Positions 570 to 56,640 of a stretch of DNA of 64,000 nt are shown here, piece after piece. The DNA is from Liolophura sinensis (lineage: Eukaryota > Mollusca > Polyplacophora > Chitonida > Chitonidae), in the NCBI RefSeq assembly GCF_032854445.1, contig NC_088305.1:26252628-26316627 (forward strand), given 5' to 3'. The position numbers and the translations under genes are program-made. Each line of letters starts with the position of its first letter. Positions within the stretch are counted from its first letter, which is position 1. The notes beneath the pieces are model-generated. The model searched no databases. It had not been told where the DNA came from and worked only from the letters and a program-made list of their open reading frames with translations.

Positions 570-3500
570 GTAATGCAGAGTGCTTAGTAGAAGAGACACC
601 CATGATCCCCTCTTGTTCCCAATTGTACTGTCAATGTTGAAGTGATATTTAACTTCTGAGAAAGTCTCATGAGAGCCCATGGGTTTGGTGATATAAAAGA
701 GTAACAGGTTCTAAGGAAAGGCCTGTCAGTTTACACTGTTTTTACATGGACCTGAGATGCACATTCTCTATTACATGTATCTATATTGATGCTCATATAC
801 CAGTGCATTCCATCATAAAATTGCATCAGATGCTTTGTAGGTATGTATATATTGAAATCATATTTACCAGAGCATAAACTGAAAAATCCAGTTGTCCAAC
901 CAAGAAATCCATGATATTATTAAAAGTGATTGACCTCCACCCACCATAATGCTGGCCACCATCGTATAAGTGAAATATTCTTGAGTATGGCGTAAAACAC
1001 CAGTCAAATGAGTAAATCAAATAAATACTTTGCAGGCTACAGGTAACGAGAGATGTCCGGTCAAGTGGAATATTGTTTGTTTATCATAGACTACAGTCAT
1101 TTAACTGAAAGGGACAGCCTATTTACCAGATGGGGGTCACAAGGGTTGGAGCAGCTTTGTCAGATCTGCCTGTTATTTGCCTGTAGGCTATGTATCTGTA
1201 CAGTTTGCTATAGTCGTAAACCTGACCTCTGACATGCATGTACATGCCTTAATGCAAGGCTATAATTGGAGTAAAAGTAAAGCCTCTGACTCCATATAGT
1301 GTGAATAGCAATATTTTTTAAGAAAATTCGATTAAACTGAAATTATGTTCTCTTGGAGCTTTTACGTGTAAGTCCGTGACTATGCAGATTATTTTAGTAT
1401 GGCGTGATTGTTTGGGATCCAAAACGTTTTCTGGACTGTAGATCTTGCCCTGATCAGTGATGTGGAGTAAACCTGTAGTCGACTAAGTAAGCCAGTACAG
1501 AAAAGGTTGAAGTAAATTTTTTCGTCTAAAAATGTTCTAAACCTTGTCTGTTTCAGGTGTAAGTCAAAAGTCTACCCAAAAGCTTTGCCGAGCACGAGTG
1601 TTATAATAGTGTTCCACAACGAGGCGTGGTCAACGTTGCTGCGGACCGTGTGGAGCGTGATTAACCGCTCGCCACGGGACCTGCTGGAAGAGGTTATCCT
1701 GGTGGATGACGCCAGCGAAAGAGGTGAGGGGTGCAGGTGTCATAGGTTGGGGGAACCATTGTTGTACGCTCTGGCAATAAAATTGTTTCTAGTACACCCC
1801 TGTAGGGTACCTCTGTTGGAAGCGCTGTCAGTACAATCGTTTCTAACACCCTCTTCCAAATAAGGGGTGCCACTGTTGTATGCACACTGACAATGAAATC
1901 TTTTCAAATTCCCCCACCCCCAATAAGGGTGTCACTGTTGTAGGCACACTGACAATAAAATCTTTTCAAACTCCCCCTCCCCCAAAAGGGTGCCACTGTT
2001 GTAGGCACACTGACAATAAAATCTTTTCGAACTCCCCCTCCCCCAAAAGGGTGCCACTGTTGTAGGCACACTGACAATAAAATCTTTTCGAACTCCCCCT
2101 CCCCCAAAAGGGTGCCACTGTTGTAGGCACACAGACAATAAAATGTTTATGAACTGCCACTCTCCCAAAAATGGTGCCAATATTGTAGGCACACTGACAA
2201 TAAAATCTTTTCGAACTCCCCCTCCCCCAATAAGGGTGCCACTGTTGTAGGCACACTGACAATAAAATCTTTTCAAACTCCCCCTCCCCCGATAAGGGTG
2301 CCACTATTGTAGGCACACTGACAATAAAATATTTTCGCACTGCCACTCTCCCAATAAGGGTGACAATGTTGTAGGCACACTGACAGTAAAATCTTTTCGA
2401 ACTTCCACTCGCCCAAAAGGGTGCCACTGTTGTAGGCACACTGACAATAAAATCTTTTCGAACTCCTCCTCCCCCAATAAGGGTGCCACTGTTGTAGGCA
2501 CACTGACAATAAAATCTTTTCAAACTCCCCCTCCCCAAAAGGGTGGCACTGTTGTAGGCACACTGACTATAAAATCTTTTCGAACTCCCCCTCCCCAAAA
2601 GGGTGCCACTGTTGTAGGCACACTGACTATAAAATCTTTTCGAACTCCCCTTCCCCAAAAGGGTGCCACTGTTGTAGGCACACTGACAATAAAATCTTTT
2701 CGAACTACCCCTCCCCCAAAAGGGTGCCACTGTTGTAGGCACACTAACAATAAAATCTTTTCGAACTGCCACTCCCCCAATAAGGGTGCCACTATTGTAG
2801 GCACTGGCAATAAAAAACGTTTCTAGCACACCCTCTCCTTTTTAAAAATATTGTAATTTCTGCATTTTTAAAGAAGTATGCAGACTGTAGATGAAAAGGC
2901 TATTTTATTATTATTATTATTTTATTATTATGAAAATTGGACATTGCTTGTGACCTTGAAAACTTTAAAATTTTAAGAAATTTAAAGATACTTTTCTGCG
3001 TTACCACATATACATATAGAATACTGACACTGAGAAATTTGTTTCCAATACTTTTCAAATTGCTTTATGAACATGCATGCTAATAAGATCATTATACATT
3101 GTACACGTGTACAATATTTTATGATTCAAGTAGTCGGGGAGAAAATGTGATTCTTGGGCCTGAAAAAGCCTAAGAAAAGCCTGGAAATGTGAAATCTTCA
3201 AGGTGTACAAGCATTGTTTATTGCCCACATTTCTGATTTCAGATGAGTTGGGGAAGAAGCTGGATGACTACGTGGCAACCCTACCAGTGTCTGTGAGCGT
3301 ACTGAGGTCTGAGAGTAGGACTGGGCTGATTCGGGCACGACTGAAAGGTACATCTAATGTGCAGACCATTACACCATATGGCCTCATATCAGGAAGTTTT
3401 GCCAGTATCTGTACTTGGTTAACTGAGAATCTTTCTCCAGGTTCTAAACAGAGATTCTTGCTGGGTCACTAATAAAAGTGCTCTAAGCAGCCAGTTGATG

Positions 3501-6500
3501 ATACTCCTGGTTCAAAAGTCAAAAAGGTGGTTACTTTAAAATCTCTGCCTGCCTCAACCTGTTAGAATAAGCCTTACATCCACAGTATTAATGAAAAATT
3601 AAGATCTTTCTCTGATGTGGAAGAAACAGTCCCTGTGTGCTATGAATTAAATAGATTGATCAAAGCATTCAATTGACACATGTTTTTAATTTCATACTTT
3701 TACACAGGTGCTGAAAAGGCTAAAGGTAAAGTGCTGACGTTTTTGGATGCTCACTGTGAATGTACTGAGGGTTGGCTGGAACCACTCCTTAATGAGATAT
3801 ATAACGACAGGTGAGAATCATTCGGCAATTAACCACTGAGTGAAATGCATGTACATCATGCAGTATGCATAGTTTTCTCTTGTTTATGGTGTTTTATGAG
3901 TGACCCTTTACTGGTAGTCACACCTGTGAATGTAATAATCCGTTTAAGAGTTGCTGCACTTTCACTACATTTTATGTCTGTCACCCGTTCATTAAAGGTG
4001 TACTGTAAAAGTGAAAGTTATTTTTCAGTGTAAATTTGAGAGAAATACATGTGTATTGTAAATTATACATAGTTCTCGCTTGTTTATGAAGGGCCTGTTT
4101 ACGTGTACATGTACATGTAGTGATATATCTGTGAATATATGAAGCTAATAAAGACGTGTTGCCTTTCCACTTCACTCTTTGTCCGTCACCCATCTTTAAA
4201 CGGATACAGGATTCCCTTCAAAAAGAAAAGCCTCCAAATACATGTTCTGTTGTTGTGTGCCTACAGGTCTGCCGTGGTGTGCCCCATCATTGATGTGATC
4301 AGCGACGACACGTTTGAATACATCACCGGATCCGACATGACCTGGGGAGGGTTTAACTGGAAACTGAACTTCCGCTGGTACCCCGTCCCCCAGAGGGAGC
4401 TGGAGAGGAGGGGTGGGGACAGGAGCCTACCCACACGGTAAGATGATCATAACAGCTGCCCAGGGTCTGTGTGAAGAGCTATGGACTTGGCAAAGAGTGG
4501 TGTTTTTTTTTTTTTAGCATGAATCCTTCCACCCAGAATTCTGACTGCTTTCACGTGTTAAAAGAAAAGGTCACACCAGACTAGATGCATATATGTGTTG
4601 ATAATGTGTCCCACATAAAATTCAGAAAACATGCTTTTTTTGTCTTTATGATGTCGCATAATGGAGGTATTGCTGATCAAAGGAAGCAAAATCCCACACA
4701 TTGACAAAATCAGAAGCACCCCCAACTAATCAGTTTGATGAAGTCATGTCTGTAACCCGGGAACCCAGCTGATTCCACTTATGTCATTTGAATCCTGGAT
4801 TGCTATTTAACTATATGTGGGTGGTATATGGACTATGTGACATCATGTTTCTTGTTGCTTTAACTCGGCGCATCCCATGGCCTCATTAGAATTCCATATT
4901 AGAAATTCATTCTTTGACTTACCAGTGCAAGCACATCACAAAAATGTCTGTGGTCGTTCTGCTCTGTTTCCACATCTCTTTAAATCCACCTCTGAATAAA
5001 TTATATTATTTGTTGTCTTTTCTTCTAAAGTGCACTATTACAGCATAAATCTAACCACTGGTATAGACATGTGCATGTAAATTGATTTGTTACAGTAACT
5101 GGAGAGAAATGTTATCAGAAATGAACAAAATAATAAAGAGTTTATTTGACATAGTGACCGAAAGGTAAGCTGTATGTAAAATGACATGAAATTTTATTCT
5201 AGGTCTCCTACCATGGCTGGAGGACTATTTTCCATAAACCGGGAGTACTTTTATGAGATCGGGTCTTATGATGAAGGCATGGATATCTGGGGGGCTGAGA
5301 ATTTAGAAATGTCCTTTAGGGTAAGTTCTTTTTTTTGGGGGGTTTTATTTTTTGGTAGGTTAGATTTTCCTGTTGTTGTGTGTGTGAAAGACCAAAACAA
5401 AGTGGAGCACCTCAACTTAAAATTTATGACCGTAACCTTTGTTTAGTGGAGCATTGTATTTGGTTTAATGGCATTACATAGAGGGGTTAAAGTTCAGTGA
5501 TGCCGGGTAATTGGAAATGAAACAAATTCACCGCCCTCCATACACACACACCCCCTCACAAAAAAATAATAAAAACATAAATAAATAATCAAAATAAGAT
5601 AGGAAAACTTACAGTCTTCAATGTTGCTATCTTTTCCTTCAATACACAACGTGCTAAATCTTGTTTTTGGCTTAGTCAGTGCAGTTGTCCCCTTTTGTTT
5701 GGCTTTTTCACTTTTTTGTTTTTCACCAAGACATGAGACAAGGAATTGCCTCAGAATTTCAGCCGTTCTTTCACAGATGTACCTAAATAAGAGGAAATTC
5801 ATAATTTTCTCCATGGGTATCAAATTCAAGTGAAGATTGGTTGAATGTAGTGTGAAAGCCTGGTTAGGTTCTCGGGACAAGACAGTTGTGTGCCACAGCA
5901 TCCTGTTAGTGTCTATAGTCAGCTAGTGGAACTGTAGTAGACTGGTTGTAGAAAGTTAACATTTGAATTGTCTGACTGGCTTTCATATCTGTAGACAAAT
6001 GCGATGCAACAGACAAAGGCTGTGTACAATGGAGTTACTTTAAGATATGAAGAGGTGAATTTGTGGTGACCTAGTGGTGTGGTTGTGATGAGCTAGTGGT
6101 GTGCTTGTGGTGAGCTAGTGATGGATTTGTGATGCATTAGTGGCGAGCTAGTGGCGTGCTAGTTGTGGGTGGGGTGAATTAGTGGTGAGCTAGTGGTGGG
6201 CTTGTTGTGAGCTAGAGCTGTACTTGTGGTGAGCTAGGGGCGTACTTGTGGTAACCTGGTGTGCTTGTGAGTTGTGATCAGTGTGTGATGCATTAGTGGC
6301 AAGCTAGTGGCGTGTTAGTAGTGGGTGGGGTGAATATTAATGGTGAGTTAGAGGTGTACTTGTGGTGAGCTAGGGGTGTACTTGTGGTAAGCTAGTGATG
6401 GGTGTGTGGTGTTCTAGTGGTGTGTTTGTGGTGAGCTAGTGGTGGGCGTATGGTGAATTAGTGATGAGCTTGTGGCAAGCCTCTTAAGGACCTTAGTGTT

Positions 6501-33100: not shown

Positions 33101-36100
33101 TTCTCGTATAGTGTCGGGTTATATCCTACAAAGCAACATGTATCATTTCTTTGGTACAATTTAAACTCTCCCAAAATAAAGTAAATGTAGAAGATAAGTG
33201 TTTTTTTTTTTCGATCTTGTTGTTTTTTTTTGTTTTTAATTTTTTTTTTAGTCAGGACCAGAATGGTGGATGGAGTGAAGATGATCATTTCATGTTCCAA
33301 ATTATTCATGAACAGTACCCTTGTGACCTCCCAAACAGAAGAGCTCTAATCCTGGACAGAATCAGCAAACATCTTCCTCACAAAACCAGATTCCATGTGG
33401 TTAGTTGAGCAGTGCTGTCAGTACTGGTTTTCAGGTTAAGCTTACACATCTTCTTATAGAGTAAGGGAGAAGTTTGTTAAAATCACAAATGTGTCCTTCA
33501 GATCTTCTCCCAAGTAGTTGTTGCACACACCTGTACAAGCAAGTATTTACGAAAGCTTTTCCCTTAGTTTGTGCCATGAATTGACTGCTTTCTTACAGAG
33601 ATGCTTTACTCCAGATGAATTTTAAAATGGAAGCAGATTACTCCACTGTGGTTTTATCAAATGGGACATTTATTGTTCAGAGTTGAGGAGTTCTGCACTT
33701 CAGCTGTTATATTTTAGTTTAATGGACATTGTTTGTTGATGTTTATGTTCAGTTTCTCTCCAGGTATTTCACTCAGATTCTCTCCCAGCAAAATTTAAAA
33801 GCTTATTACCCCATTGTTTTTTTCTTTTGTTTGTTGTAGAACATGAACAAGTATTACTGTAGCCCTGACATGTCCATCTATGACTGTGTAATGGAGACAT
33901 TTGTTTTTCTGTGTTGTCAGGTAGAACATGAACACTGGTGGTTAGGGTACAAGTATTACTGTAGCCCTGACATGTCCATCTATGACTGTGTAATGGAGAC
34001 ATTTGTTTTTCTGTGTTGTCAGGTAGAACATGAACACTGGTGGTTAGGGTACAAGTATTACTGTAGCCCTGACATGTCCATCTATGGCAGTGTAATGGAG
34101 ACATTTGTTTTTCTGTGTTGTCAGGTAGAACAGGGACACTGGTGGTTAGGGTACAAGTATTACTGTAGCCCTGACATGTCCATCTATGGCAGTGTAATGG
34201 AGCCATTTGTTTTTCTGTGTTGTCAGGTAGAACATGAACACTGGTGGTTAGGGTACAAGTATTGCTCTAGCCCTGACATGTCCATCTATGACTGTGTAAT
34301 GGAGACATTTGTTTTTCTGTGTTGTCAGGTAGAACATGAACACTGGTGGTTAGGGTACAAGTATTACTGTAGCCCTGACATGGCCATCTATGACCGTGTA
34401 ATGGAGACATTTGTTTTTCTGTTGTCAGGTAGAACATGAACACTGGTGGTTAGGGTACAAGTATTACTGTAGCCCTGACATGTCCATCTATGACTGTGTA
34501 ATGGGGACATTTGTTTTTCTGTGTTGTCAGGTAGAACATGAACACTGGTGGTTAGGGTACAAGTATTACTGTAGCCGTGACATGTCCATCTATGACCGTG
34601 TAATGGAGACATTTGTTTTTCTGTGTTGTCAGGTAGAACATGAACACTGGTGGTTAGGGTACAAGTATTACTGTAGCCCTGACATGTCCATCTATGGCAG
34701 TGTAATGGAGCCATTTGTTTTTCTGTGTTGTCAGGTAGAACATGAACACTGGTGGTTAGGGTACAAGTATTACTGTAGCCCTGACATGTCCATCTATGGC
34801 AGTGTAATGGAGCCATTTGTTTTTCTGTGTTGTCAGGTAGAACATGAACACTGGTGGTTAGGGTACAAGTATTACTGTAGCCCTGACATGTCCATCTATG
34901 GCAGTGTAATGGAGCCATTTGTTTTTCTGTGTTGTCAGATAGAACATGAACACTGGTGGTTAGGGTACAAGTATTACTGTAGCCCTGACATGTCCATCTA
35001 TGACCGTGTAATGGAGACATTTGTTTTTCTGTGTTGTCAGGTAGAACATGAACACTGGTGGTTAGGGTACAAGTATTACTGTAGCCCTGACATGTCCATC
35101 TATGGCAGTGTAATGGAGCCATTTGTTTTTCTGTGTTGTCAGGTAGAACATGAACACTGGTGGTTAGGGTACAAGTATTACTGTAGCCCTGACATGTCCA
35201 TGTATGACTGTGTAATGGAGACATTTGTTTTTCTGTGTTGTCAGGTAGAACATGAACACTGGTGGTTAGGGTACAAGTTTTACTGTAGCTCTGACATGTC
35301 CATCTATGGCAGTGTAATGGAGCCATTTGTTTTTCTGTGTTGTCAGGTAGAACATGAACACTGGTGGTTAGGGTACAAGTATTACTGTAGCCCTGACATG
35401 TCCATCTATGACTGTGTAATGGGGACATTTGTTTTTCTGTGTTGTCAGGTAGAACATGAACACTGGTGGTTAGGGTACAAGTATTACTGTAGCCCTGACA
35501 TGTCCATCTATGACTGTGTAATGGAGACATTTGTTTTTCTGTTTTGTCAGGTAGAACAGGAACACAGGTGGTTAGGGTACAAGTATTACTGTAGCCCTGA
35601 CATGTCCATCTATGACTGTGTAATGGAGCCATTTGTGTTTCTGTGTTGTCAGGTAGAACATGAACACTGGTGGTTAGGGTACAAGTATTGCTGTAGCCCT
35701 GACATGTCCATCTATGACTGTGTAATGGTGCCATGTGTTTTTCTGTGTTGTCAGGTAGAACATGAACACTGGTGGTTAGGGTACAAGTATTACTGTAGCC
35801 CTGACATTTCCATCTATGGCGGTGTAATGGAGCCATTTGTTTTTCTGTGTTGTCAGGTAGAACATGAACACTGGTGGGTAGGGTACAAGTATTACTGTAG
35901 CCCTGACATGTCCATCTATGACTGTGTAATGGAGCCATTTGTTTTTCTGTGTTGTCAGATAGAACATGAACACTGGTGGTTAGGGTACAAGTATTACTGT
36001 AGCCCTGACATGTCCATCTATGACTGTGTAATGGAGACATTTGTTTTTCTGTGTTGTCAGGTAGAACATGAACACTGGTGGTTAGGGTACAAGTATTACT

Positions 36101-39100
36101 GTAGCCCTGACATGTTCATCTATGACCGTGTAATGGAGAAATTTGTTTTTCTGTGTTGTCAGGTAGAACATGAACACTGGTGGTTAGGGTACAAGTATTA
36201 CTGTAGCCCTGACATGTTCATCTATGACCGTGTAATGGAGAAATTTGTTTTTCTGTGTTGTCAGGTAGAACATGAACACTGGTGGTTAGGGTACAAGTTT
36301 TACTGTAGCTCTGACATGTCCATCTATGGCAGTGTAATGGAGCCATTTGTTTTTCTGTGTTGTCAGGTAGAACATGAACACTGGTGGTTAGGGTACAAGT
36401 ATTACTGTAGCCCTGACATGTCCATCTATGACTGTGTAATGGGGACATTTGTTTTTCTGTGTTGTCAGGTAGAACATGAACACTGGTGGTTAGGGTACAA
36501 GTATTACTGTAGCCCTGACATTTCCATCTATGGCAGTGTAATGGAGCCATTTGTTTTTCTGTGTTGTCAGGTAGAACATGAACACTGGTGGTTAGGGTAC
36601 AAGTATTACTGTAACCGCCACAAATCGATTCTTCATGACTGGCAGAGAGATCGACGAGAGCTAATGAACAAAGCTAAGGTGGTGTTCTCTGAGGCCTGTG
36701 TCACCCAGGAACTGGAATCTGCCTTGGAAGACTGCAAACAGAAGCAGAGAGACCTGTGTAAAACGCTGTATGATAAGGTAATTACAGCAGAGAGACAGTG
36801 TAAAATGCTGTATGGTAAGGAAATTTACATCTGGAGAGATGTGTAAAACGCTGTATGATATGGTAATTACCCGCAGAGAGACAGTGTAAAATGCTGTATG
36901 GTAAGGAAATTTACATCTGGAGAGATGTGTAAAATGCTGTATGATAAGGTAATTACGGCAGAGAGACAGTGTAAAATGCTGTATGGTAAGGAAATTTACA
37001 TCTGGAGAGATGTGTAAAATGCTGTATGATAAGGTAATTACCGCAGAGAGACAGTGTAAAATGCTGTATGGTAAGGAAATTTACATCTGGAGAGATGTGT
37101 AAAACGCTGTATGATAAGGTAATTACGGCAGAGAGACAGTGTAAAATGCTGTATGGTAAGGAAATTTACATCTGGAGAGATGTGTAAAACACTGTATGAT
37201 AAGGTAATTACGGCAAAGAGACAGTGTAAAATGCTGTATGGTAAGGAAATTTACATCTGGAGAGATGTGTAAAACACTGTATGATAAGGTAATGACGGCA
37301 GAGAGACAGTGTAAAATGCTGTATGGTAAGGAAGTTTACATCTGGAGAGATGTGTAAAATGCTGTATGATAAGGTAATTACGGCAGAGAGACAGTGTAAA
37401 ATGCTGTATGGTAAGGAAATTTACATCTGGAGAAATGTGTAAAACACTGTATGATAAGGTAATTACTGCAGAGAGATAGTGTAAAATGCTGTATGGTAAG
37501 GAAATTTACATCTGGAGAAATGTGTAAAACACTGTATGATAAGGTAATTACTGCAGAGAGATAGTGTAAAATGCTGTATGGTAAGGAAATTTACATCTGG
37601 AGAAATGTGTAAAACACTGTATGATAAGGTAATTACTGCAGAGAGACAGTGTAAAATGCTGTATGGTAAGGAAAATTACATCTGGAGAGATGTGTAAAAC
37701 ACTGTTTGATAAGGTAATTACAGCAGAGAGACAGTGTAAAATGCTGTATGATAAGGAAATAACATTTGAGGAGACATGTACAAAACACTTTATGGTAAGG
37801 TTATTATGTCCAGAGAGATGTGCAAAACACTGTATGGTAAGGTAATTATGTCCAGGGTGACCTGTAGAAAATGCTGTATGATATTAAAGGTAATTAGGTC
37901 TGGTGATACATGTTCCTGTGTAAAATGCTGTAGGATAAGATAGTCGAGATTACGTCCGGAGACATCTACATAAAACGCTGTAGAATTAGATATTATATCA
38001 AGATTTCATTTGGTGAGAGACCTGTGTAAAATGCTGTGTGATAATTTGGTAAAGATTGCGTCCAGAGAGACCTGTGTAAAACACTGTGTGATAAATCAGT
38101 GAAGATTATTTTCAGAGAGACCTGTGTAAACACTGTGTGATAAAGCAGTAAAGATTATTTTCAGAGAGACCTGTGTAAAACACTGTGTGATAAAGCAGTG
38201 AAGATTATGTTCAGAGAGACCTGTGTAAAACACTGTGTGATAATGCAGTAAAGATAACGTCCAGAGAGACCTGTATAAAATACTGTAGGTAGTTGGGATT
38301 AGGTCAGATGAAGTTTTCTTAAGTTGTTTTTAATCAAGTTGTTAAATAGTATGATTTTATTTGTGTAATGGCATGATATGTAACATAACTAAAACTCTGA
38401 AATCAGTATGTACCTTAACTGGGTGGATGTCATGTCGGGTGTATTTTGGCATCACTATGAGTTTGTTTGCAGTGGAAAAAAATGTTGAAAATAATTTTAA
38501 AAACTCCAGGAAAAGAAAGAAACAAACAAAAACAAGCTACTATGTCGTTGGATGTTGTCAGGTGGTGAAATGGCGAGAGCAGAAAATGGAGGCGATGTTG
38601 CTGGAGAATCAGATAGAGGAGAGAAGACGAAAAGAAGCTGAGGAGCAGATGAGGCTGGAGGATGAAAAGGAGAAAAAGAGACGCAAAGTGGAAAAAGAAA
38701 AGGTTGCTCGAAATTTTTCTAGTACAGCTATCTCATCATAAATTACTGTACAAGTATATGATGTAAAATTTACCAAATAAAGTATATTTTTAGAGGCAAA
38801 TAAAACACTGTTTTTTGATGCTGAAACTTAAATTTTTCCACTAGAATATCATTCCAAACATCAAGACACCTTTCTAAATCATGGAAAAAATTTTGAGTCA
38901 AATACAGTAAGTCAGTAAAAAATAGAAATGTTCTGAAATAGAATTCTGTCTCACTGTAAGCATATTTCTGCATAATATTTCAGCAGTTTTGTAATGGAGT
39001 CAAATTAAGGTGAAATGTAAACAGTTTCATTCTGTTAAAAGAAAAGTTAAATTGCATTTGTGCTAGAATATTCATGGGTATATGCACACTAAAATAGCAA

Positions 39101-46117: not shown

Positions 46118-48538
46118 AACCGTATGAGGTAATGGAACTGATCAGAATTAAGCAAAAAGACCCCATGAGCTAATGGAATTGATCAGAATTAAGCAAAAAG
46201 ACCCTATGAGCTAATGGAACTGATCAGAATTAAGCAAAAAGACCCTATGAGCTAATGGAATTGATCGGAATTAAGCAAAAAGACCCTATGAGCTAATGGA
46301 ATTGATCGGAATTAAGCAAAAAGACCCTATGAGCTAATGGAATTGATCGGAATTAAGCAAAAAGACCGTATGAGGTAATGGAACTGATCAGAATTAAGCA
46401 AAAAGACCCCATGAGCTAATGGAATTGATCAGAATTAAGCAAAAAGACCCTATGAGCTAATGGAACTGATCAGAATTAAGCAAAAAGACCCTATGAGCTA
46501 ATGGAATTGATCGGAATTAAGCAAAAAGACCCTATGAGCTAATGGAATTGATCAGAATTAAGCAAAAAGACCCTATGAGCTAATGGAATTGATCAGAATT
46601 AAGCAAAAAGACCGTATGAGGTAATGGAACTGATCAGAATTAAGCAAAAAGACCCCATGAGCTAATGGAATTGATCGGAATTAAGCAAAAAGACCCTATG
46701 AGCTAATGGAACTGATCGGAATTAAGCAAAAAGACCCTATGAGCTAATGGAATTGATCGGAATTAAGCAAAAAGACCCTATGAGCTAATGGAATTGATCG
46801 GAATTAAGCAAAAAGACCCTATGAGCTAATGGAATTGATCGGAATTAAGCAAAAAGACCCTATGAGCTAATGGAATTGATCGGAATTAAGCAAAAAGACC
46901 GTATGAGGTAATGGAACTGATCGGAATTAAGCAAAAAGACCCTATGAGCTAATGGAATTGATCGGAATTAAGCAAAAAGACCCTATGAGCTAATGGAATT
47001 GATCGGAATTAAGCAAAAAGACCCTATGAGCTAATGGAATTGATCGGAATTAAGCAAAAAGACCCTATGAGGTAATGGAATTGATCGGAATTAAGCAAAA
47101 AGACCCTATGAGCTAATGGAATTGATCGGAATTAAGCAAAAAGACCCTATGAGCTAATGGAATTGATCGGAATTAAGCAAAAAGACCCTATGAGCTAATG
47201 GAATTGATCGGAATTAAGCAAAAAGACCCTATGAGGTAATGGAATTGATCGGAATTAAGCAAAAAGACCCTATGAGCTAATGGAATTGATCAGAATTAAG
47301 CAAAAAGACCCTATGAGGTAATGGAATTGATCAGAATTAAGCAAAAAGACCCTATGAGGTAATGGAATTGATCAGAATTAAGCAAAAAGACCCTATGAGC
47401 TAATGGAATTGATCAGAATTAAGCAAAAAGACCCTATGAGGTAATGGAATTGATCAGAATTAAGCAAAAAGACCCTATGAGCTAATGGAATTGATCAGAA
47501 TTAAGCAAAAAGACCCTATGAGCTAATGGAATTGATCAGAATTAAGCAAAAAGACCCTATGAGGTAATGAAATTGATCAGAATTAAGCATAAAAGACCCT
47601 ATGAGCTAATGAAATTGATCAGAATTAAGCAAAAAGACCCTATGAGCTAATGGAATTGATCAGAATTAAGCAAAAAGACCCTATGAGCTAATGGAATTGA
47701 TCAGAATTAAGCAAAAAGACCCTATGAGCTAATGGAATTGATCGGAATTAAGCAAAAAGACCCTATGAGCTAATGGAATTGATCAGAATTAAGCAAAAAG
47801 ACCCTATGAGCTAATGGAATTGATCAGAATTAAGCAAAAAGACCCTATGAGGTAATGGAATTGATCAGAATTAAGCAAAAAGACCCTATGAGGTAATGGA
47901 ATTGATCAGAATTAAGCAAAAAGACCCTATGAGGTAATGGAATTGATCAGAATTAAGCAAAAAGACCCTATGAGGTAATGAAATTGATCAGAATTAAGCA
48001 AAAAGACCCTATGAGCTAATGGAATTGATCAGAATTAAGCAAAAAGACCCTATGAGCTAATGGAATTGATCAGAATTAAGCAAAAAGACCCTATGAGCTA
48101 ATGGAATTGATCAGAATTAAGCAAAAAGACCCTATGAGGTAATGGAATTGATCAGAATTAAGCAAAAAGACCCTATGAGGTAATGGAATTGATCAGAATT
48201 AAGCAAAAAGACCCTATGAGGTAATGAAATTGATCAGAATTAAGCAAAAAGACCCTATGAGGTAATGGAATTGATCAGAATTAAGCAAAAAGACCCTATG
48301 AGGTAATGGAACTGATCAGAATTAAGCAAAAAGACCCTATGAGCTAATGGAATTGATCAGAATTAAGCAAAAAGACCCTATGAGGTAATGGAATTGATCA
48401 GAATTAAGCAAAAAGACCCTATGAGCCAATGGAATTGATCAGAATTAAGCAAAAAGACCCTATGAGCTAATGGAATTGATCAGAATTAAGCAAAAAGACC
48501 CTATGAGCTAATGGAATTGATCAGAATTAAGCAAAAAG
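46118..48538. repeat. 41-bp satellite, about 59 copies
   Basis: The unit is gaccctatgagctaatggaa followed by ttgatcrgaattaagcaaaaa, very homogeneous; one +1 indel lies near 47588. Variable sites (gagCtaa/gagGtaa, gatcAg/gatcGg, ggaaTtg/ggaaCtg) mark domains. The GG variant dominates on the left and AG on the right. A gaccgtatgaggtaatggaa marker unit recurs at 46118, 46364, 46610 and 46897, spacings of 6, 6 and 7 units, so a 246-bp higher-order unit existed. No coding potential. Confidence 0.97.
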
Positions 48539-54879: not shown

Positions 54880-56640
54880 ACTGTGAAACATGCTGACGTG
54901 ATACAGCTGCACTGTAGGTAGGTATGGACTGTACACTGGTGTGATAATGTGACACATACAGAGGTGATACAGGATGATACAGCTGCTCTGTAGGTAGTAC
55001 GGGCTGTACACTGGTGTGATACTGTGACATGCTGAGGTGATACAAGATGATACAGCTGCTCTGTAGGTAGTGTGGGCTGTACTCTGGTGTGATACTGTGA
55101 CGTACTGAGGTGATACAACATGATACAGCTGCTCTGTAGGTGGTACGGACTGTACTCTGGTGTGATACTGTAACACATGCTGAGGTGATACAGCTCCACT
55201 GTAGTAGTATGGGCTGTACACTGGTGTGATACTGTGACACGTGCTGAGGTGATACAAGATGATACAGCAGCTCTGTAGGTAGTACAGGCTGTACACTGGT
55301 GTGGATGATACAGCAGCTCTGTAGGTAGTACAGGCTGTACACTGGTGTGATGATACAGCTGCTCTGTAGGTAGTACAGGCTGTACACCGGTGTGATGATA
55401 CAGCAGCTCTGTAGGTAGTACAGGCTGTACACCGGTGTGATGATACAGCAGCTCTGTAGGTAGTACAGGCTGTACACCGGTGTGATGATACAGCAGCTCT
55501 GTAGGTAGTACAGGCTGTACACCGGTGTGATGATACAGCAGCTCTGTAGGTAGTACAGGCTGTACACCGGTGTGATGATACAGCAGCTCTGTAGGTAGTA
55601 CAGGCTGTACACCGGTGTGATGATACAGCAGCTCTGTAGTAGTACAGGCTGTACACCGGTGTGATGATACAGCAGCTCTGTAGGTAGTACAGGCTGTACA
55701 CCGGTGTGATGATACAGCAGCTCTGTAGGTAGTACAGGCTGTACACCGTGTGATGATACAGCAGCTCTGTAGGTAGTACAGGCTGTACACCGGTGTGATG
55801 ATACAGCAGCTCTGTAGGTAGTACAGGCTGTACACTGGTGTGATGATACAGCAGCTCTGTAGGTAGTACAGGCTGTACACCGGTGTGATGATACAGCAGC
55901 TCTGTAGGTAGTACAGGCTGTACACCGGTGTGATGATACAGCAGCTCTGTAGGTAGTACAGGCTGTACACGGTGTGATGATACAGCAGCTCTGTAGGTAG
56001 TACAGGCTGTACACCGGTGTGATGATACAGCTGCTCTGTAGGTAGTACAGGCTGTACACCGGTGTGATGATTACAGCAGCTCTGTAGGTAGTACAGGCTG
56101 TACACCGGTGTGATGATACAGCAGCTCTGTAGGTAGTACAGGCTGTACACCGGTGTGATGATACAGCTGCTCTGTAGGTAGTACAGGCTGTACACTGGTG
56201 TGATGATACAGCTGCTCTGTAGGTAGTACAGGCTGTACACCGGTGTGATGATACAGCAGCTCTGTAGGTAGAACAGGCTGTACTCTGGTGTGATACTGTG
56301 ACACGTGCTGAGGTGATACAAGATGATACAGCAGCTCTGTAGGTAGTCACAGGCTGTACACTGTATGATACAGCTGCTCTGTAGGTAGTACAGGCTGTAC
56401 ACTGGTGTGATGATACAGCAGCTCTGTAGGTAGTACAGGCTGTACACTGGTGTGATGATACAGCTGCTCTGTAGGTAGTACAGGCTGTACACCGGTGTGA
56501 TGATACAGCAGCTCTGTAGGTAGTACAGGCTGTACACCGGTGTGATGATACAGCAGCTCTGTAGGTAGAACAGGCTGTACTCTGGTGTGATACTGTTATA
56601 CATGCTGAGGTGAAACAGCTGCTCTGTAGGTAGTTAGGGC
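54880..56640. repeat. 45-bp minisatellite downstream of TTLL4
   Basis: About 35-38 units of gatacagcagctctgtaggt, agtacaggctgtacaccggt and gtgat. The right two-thirds (55260-56560) are very uniform and the left part is interspersed with longer diverged linkers (tgtgacatgctgaggtgata). Because 45 is a multiple of three, the minus strand shows open frames of hundreds of codons in two frames; these are not genes. Each unit contains the palindrome acaccggtgt. Confidence 0.95.

Follow-up and report, generated by a model that had tools for sequence, protein, structure and literature searches.

Tandem arrays across both splice junctions of a chiton exon look like a fairly common, nearly neutral genome feature

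Tandem repeats multiply both ends of one exon in the chiton Liolophura sinensis. The window, a stretch of 64,000 nucleotides on contig NC_088305.1 (positions 26,252,628 to 26,316,627), comes from a genome assembly of 609.5 Mb in 632 scaffolds that was published as Liolophura japonica and later corrected to L. sinensis. It holds a gene whose exon 6 is flanked by repeat arrays that extend into the introns toward exons 5 and 7 (Table 1). The call of exon 5 leans on frame and splice signals, its codon score being only -0.07; a first-pass annotation of the window had placed this exon at 33252-33399, and we retain that end while taking 33256 as the start. The same annotation named the gene CCDC148, a name that is unconfirmed and stays a label: a Pfam search of the gene product gave 0 families, and a PDB search returned no match below E 0.08. 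Mouse Ccdc148 is placed at cilia in passages of one report (PMC11781205), which has no bearing on the array.

On its upstream side, exon 6 is preceded by a long series of copies of its own acceptor. Each 102-bp unit consists of 59 bp of intron end and the first 43 bp of exon 6, confirming the unit structure given in the first-pass annotation. The acceptor motif TTGTCAG|RTAGAACA occurs in 27 copies from 33921 to 36571, spaced at 102 bp with a single 100-bp step. Of the resulting 26 units, 25 measure 102 bp and one (at 34329) 100 bp; 19 distinct sequences are found among them, in the order ABCDEFGHHHIHJKFLMNOPQRRKFS, which includes the runs HHH and RR and the block KF twice. TRF places the limits of this array at 33847-36613. 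A degraded extra acceptor copy near 33838, TTGTAG|AACATG when read directly from the sequence, joins the 26 full-motif decoys, and an earlier count of 27 near-identical decoys was about right. Every decoy carries a match of 37–47 bases to the start of exon 6, and 20/26 are identical to the true acceptor over positions -20..+6 (5/26 over -30..+43). AG is kept at 26/26 decoy acceptors; at 25/27 acceptors it is directly followed by GT, and at the other two by AT. When the genome, assembled as one haplotype, was searched with the 102-bp unit, all 28 matches fell at this locus, as did all 9 matches to a joined exon peptide with which a retrocopy of the spliced form was sought. Three units, when folded as RNA, gave an unremarkable result (z -1.25).

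Much of this array is open in the frame of the exon. Phase 0 is open to 36777 from all 22 acceptors between 34429 and 36571, and the five acceptors upstream of these (33921-34329) run into a stop because a 2-bp deletion moved the frame. The first-pass annotation had described an in-frame minisatellite in which an acceptor is multiplied together with coding sequence, and its anatomy was right, down to the translation of the 34-residue unit.

The donor end of exon 6 is also multiplied, out to 38286, a feature absent from the first-pass annotation. The donor motif AAG|GTAAT has 13 occurrences, true donor included. This side is without the open in-frame property of the acceptor side: splicing at any of the 12 downstream AAG|GTAAT donors would introduce a stop 22 codons beyond the normal end, at codon 92 of the lengthened exon. 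The 85-bp unit is itself composed of two diverged half-units of ~42 bp each; the second half has AAG|GA in place of AAG|GT, but the adjoining ATG|GTAAGG makes a new donor-like site.

Table 1. Exons and arrays at the exon 6 locus (positions within the window), and junction-spanning arrays at sampled exons
Feature	Position or locus	Strand	Description
Exon 5	33256..33399	+	donor GTG|GTTAGT, phase 0 at end; called from frame and splice signals
Acceptor-side array	33838..36613	+	26 decoy acceptors and the true one; 102-bp unit
In-frame decoy units	34429..36570	+	21 units (714 codons), open with exon 6; reading frame; codon score -0.20
Exon 6	36571..36777	+	207 bp (69 codons), both ends in phase 0; bounded by the innermost acceptor and donor
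Donor-side array	36755..37847	+	85-bp unit, ~12.8 copies; last 25-35 bp of exon 6 and donor AAG|GTAAT
Outer donor-side array	38015..38286	+	50-bp unit in 5.5 copies; exon 6 end, copied with more divergence
Exon 7	38562..38702	+	acceptor TTGTCAG|GTGG, phase 0; codon score +0.44
Junction arrays, acceptor side	L007, L008, L030, L042		sequences read by eye
Junction arrays, donor side	L016, L023, L027, L037, L042, L044, L049		sequences read by eye

Tandem repeats are abundant in the window as a whole, where 24 merged arrays (period at least 15, score at least 100) fill 22.9% of the sequence; among them are a 41-bp unit repeated 59 times at 46119-48538 and a 45-bp unit repeated ~23 times at 55258-56294. 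Elsewhere in the assembly, contig C99 (loci L001 and L002) carries at least seven COX1 copies, mostly spaced at ~15.5 kb, as in a head-to-tail run of the mitochondrial genome; this run is a concatemer formed during assembly or else a nuclear insertion. The mitochondrial contig, C632, is 15,209 bp long.

Arrays also span splice junctions at other exons of this genome. We surveyed exons encoding the kinesin motor (at least 132 matches) and dynein AAA_6 (at least 90 matches), chosen regardless of repeats. The 35 kinesin and 15 dynein loci of the survey cover 275,370 bp and hold 124/132 and 84/90 of the matches, respectively (8 and 6 others were left out), which after merging represent 207 exons whose edges are the ends of profile matches and not annotated exons. 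With the array threshold set at a period of at least 15 and a TRF score of at least 100, these loci contain 63 arrays filling 43,669 bp. An automated comparison flagged 12 crossings of exon-match edges, of which 11 were kept after the sequences were read; the crossing at L021 was dropped, the profile match there having run past the donor. Junction-spanning arrays are present at 11/207 sampled exons (5.3%, 95% interval 2.7–9.3%). Arrays near an edge that on reading by eye proved not to cross it were set aside at L005 (three), L012, L027 (two), L030 (after 1279), L035, L046 (two), and L051.

Individual loci add further detail. In one dynein gene (L042) two exons are affected, one by an acceptor-side array and the other by a donor-side array (2959-3380 and 4344-4720). 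A kinesin gene (L016:6319-8140) has a donor-side array with a 73-bp unit and a second-order copy 1,680 bp away, which comprises >100 bp of exon end with 141/142 bases identical and is a possible step toward a duplicated exon. At L036 the exon match at 2564-2755, on the minus strand, has its donor crossed by an array whose copies each carry CAG|GT; the array is small and young-looking (2.4 copies of 30 bp), and its TRF score of 81 lies below the threshold of 100. It was left out of the counts and tests. Arrays below the threshold were listed for the kinesin loci only.

The placement of arrays shows at most a mild deficit of edge crossings. Rotation of the arrays within their loci gave 11.5 ± 3.1 expected crossings against 12 observed, while arrays swallowing an exon match numbered 1 against 17.0 ± 3.1 expected. 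The sole array that seemed to swallow an exon match, at L016, is a 1,680-bp second-order copy of the exon end. When placements over or inside an exon match were barred, 11 crossings (including L021, not L016) stood against 14.8 ± 3.2 expected (P = 0.16). Arrays are therefore kept out of exon bodies and cross splice sites at about chance frequency, which leaves room for a mild cost.

We followed the spare sites in 13 arrays, the two at exon 6 and the 11 from the sample, each of which holds 3 to 42 intact spare splice sites. Spare AG and GT sites are neither retained nor purged relative to neighboring bases: the conservation of the dinucleotide within its unit has a mean percentile of 0.51 (13 arrays, true copy included). 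Scored with splice-site models trained on the sample's other exons, 115/260 decoys equal or exceed their own true site. The true acceptor of exon 6 is itself strong (10.4; sample median 7.9, upper quartile 9.9), and 24/26 of its decoys reach that score. Across the 13 arrays the true site stands at a mean percentile of 0.63 among its own decoys (0.73 in the 8 donor arrays and 0.46 in the 5 acceptor arrays); on average it is thus somewhat stronger than they are, a lean to be expected of a site held by selection beside decaying copies. Among donors the strength of the site itself may play a part, with L016, L027, and L044 as clear cases.

One possibility is that several of the 22 open acceptors of exon 6 serve in splicing, so that in-frame isoforms gain as many as 21 additional 34-residue units. 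This was the proposal of the first-pass annotation, under which array length would become protein length. Use of a decoy would join the end of exon 5 to a unit continuing TACTGTAGCCCTGACATG, and use of the true site to an exon continuing TACTGTAACCGCCAC; an isoform containing array units would show a join to a unit running into CCCTGACATG. Frame and openness hold for all 22 acceptors, and the intact AG and high scores of the decoys, measured against a true acceptor above the sample's upper quartile, also favor such use. However, shuffling the intron portion left 35% of 102-bp units open, and combined with a one in three chance of a length divisible by three this yields a chance of ~0.12; an array of this kind would be free of stops with a chance of 0.15-0.21 in the absence of selection. 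When up to three nearest decoys per array fitting a motif that we wrote were considered, frame is kept and openness maintained in 1/13 arrays, namely on the acceptor side of exon 6. Periods are divisible by three in 3/13. At L036 both spare donors are in frame and open, which speaks mildly for a protein-lengthening role; with this array included the fraction is 2/14, close to the 12% expected. The exon 6 array was noticed because it is in frame.

The units themselves vary like noncoding DNA. Compared with their consensus, the 25 full-length units (the 100-bp unit left out) carry 24 distinct changes, 23 nonsynonymous and 1 synonymous. A synonymous share of 16–24% is expected without selection, and there is therefore no sign of purifying selection on the units. 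The 714-codon open stretch has a codon log-odds within the range of open noncoding DNA (medians are +0.19 for exon matches and -0.13 for open noncoding stretches). The body of exon 6 beyond base 43 scores +0.25 and its first 14 codons -0.50; these 14 codons and the low value of exon 5 show that the score is noisy for short stretches. Variation in array length as a source of variation in protein length thus finds no support here, and we regard the production of lengthened isoforms as very unlikely.

Instead, we are fairly confident that the arrays grew neutrally, by tandem duplication outward from the edges of the exon, and that the exon body confines splicing to the innermost sites. Under this model, separate tandem duplications would have crossed the acceptor edge and the donor edge of exon 6 and then grown into both introns. 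A duplication across a splice site would leave an intact site attached to the exon body and would on that account be tolerated. Additional copies would extend into the intron, homogenize block-wise, and decay; with the innermost copy still attached to the exon body, the gene would keep working, and the outer ones would be free to expand, homogenize, and decay as noncoding DNA. The outer sites would be passed over because the exon body is bounded only by the innermost acceptor and the innermost donor. We infer such exon definition as the cause of splice choice, and the most likely joins are 33399 to 36571 and 36777 to 38562. Arrays at both edges, decoy acceptors that match the true one in strength, neighbor-like decay of the spare sites, and comparable arrays at 11/207 sampled exons are observed directly. 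Rather than a lengthening device, junction arrays look like something fairly common and close to neutral in this genome.

Another reading is stepwise removal of the array by recursive or dual-specific splicing, with early choices corrected. Most units present AG|GT, and a decoy acceptor, once used, would therefore leave a donor able to splice onward; GT follows 25/27 acceptors, and AG|GT sites splice both ways in human polyubiquitin repeats, as described in PMC10809524. However, the rebuilt donor GTG|GTAGAA matches the sample donor AAG|GTAAGT poorly, and AG|GT stands at the true site in L007 but in none of the other three sampled acceptor arrays, which makes this route very unlikely. It is scarcely credible that the assembler collapsed, expanded, or invented the arrays: depth is only 14x and copy number may be off, but the mean HiFi read of 8,347 bp compares with ~4.5 kb for both arrays and the exon, 19/26 units are distinct, and similar structures occur at 11 other exon edges.

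We give an even chance to a broader reading, in which arrays with 3–42 intact spare sites, many of them matching the used site in strength, lie beside about 1 exon in 20 of this genome at little or no selective cost, so that splice choice there must be made by the exon body or innermost pairing and not by site strength. If this is true, the genome would amount to a large-scale natural experiment in exon definition and in the gain of introns and exons from junction repeats. The arrays offer many ready-made tests of how the spliceosome chooses one site among dozens of equals, and they supply raw material for new introns and exons.

Related structures have been described in other animals. Human UBC, as described in PMC10809524, resembles the chiton array in its AG|GT unit borders (25/27 here), a length divisible by three, and a frame kept on use or skipping. 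Its units, in contrast, are coding monomers that are conserved, and RT-PCR has shown isoforms, whereas the chiton units vary as noncoding DNA. Internal tandem repeats in human segmental duplications, according to sections of PMC2812944, likewise lie at exon–intron boundaries and are able to alter introns; the cases given there are recently duplicated primate genes with transcript-supported altered splicing, whereas the chiton arrays are known from DNA.

The exon 6 arrays belong with the junction-spanning minisatellites that are known in lancelets as mirages. In passages of PMC3087553 and PMC3902484, lancelet mirages (in Adh3, troponin C, the globins BflGb6 and BflGb9, and PGBD5) are minisatellite-like copies across an intron–exon boundary, at acceptor or donor, with units of tens to ~160 bp, many of which carry AG or GT; regular splicing is left undisturbed, and length polymorphism is reported. 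As in those accounts, chiton units span the splice site, with 59 bp of intron and 43 bp of exon at the acceptor and 25-35 bp of exon end plus the donor on the other side. Also shared are a splice signal kept in 27/27 acceptors and 13/13 donors of the aligned chiton arrays, and turnover within the cluster, seen here as 19/26 distinct units and repeated blocks. Unlike the lancelet cases in these passages, the present one is in a mollusc, multiplies both ends of one exon, reaches 27 acceptors, and comes with a rate from a 207-exon sample. The open-licence PMC literature that we searched places mirages in lancelets only, with no report from a mollusc. As far as that search extends, the phylum, the multiplication of both ends of one exon, and a rate from sampled exons accompanied by a decay test are new.
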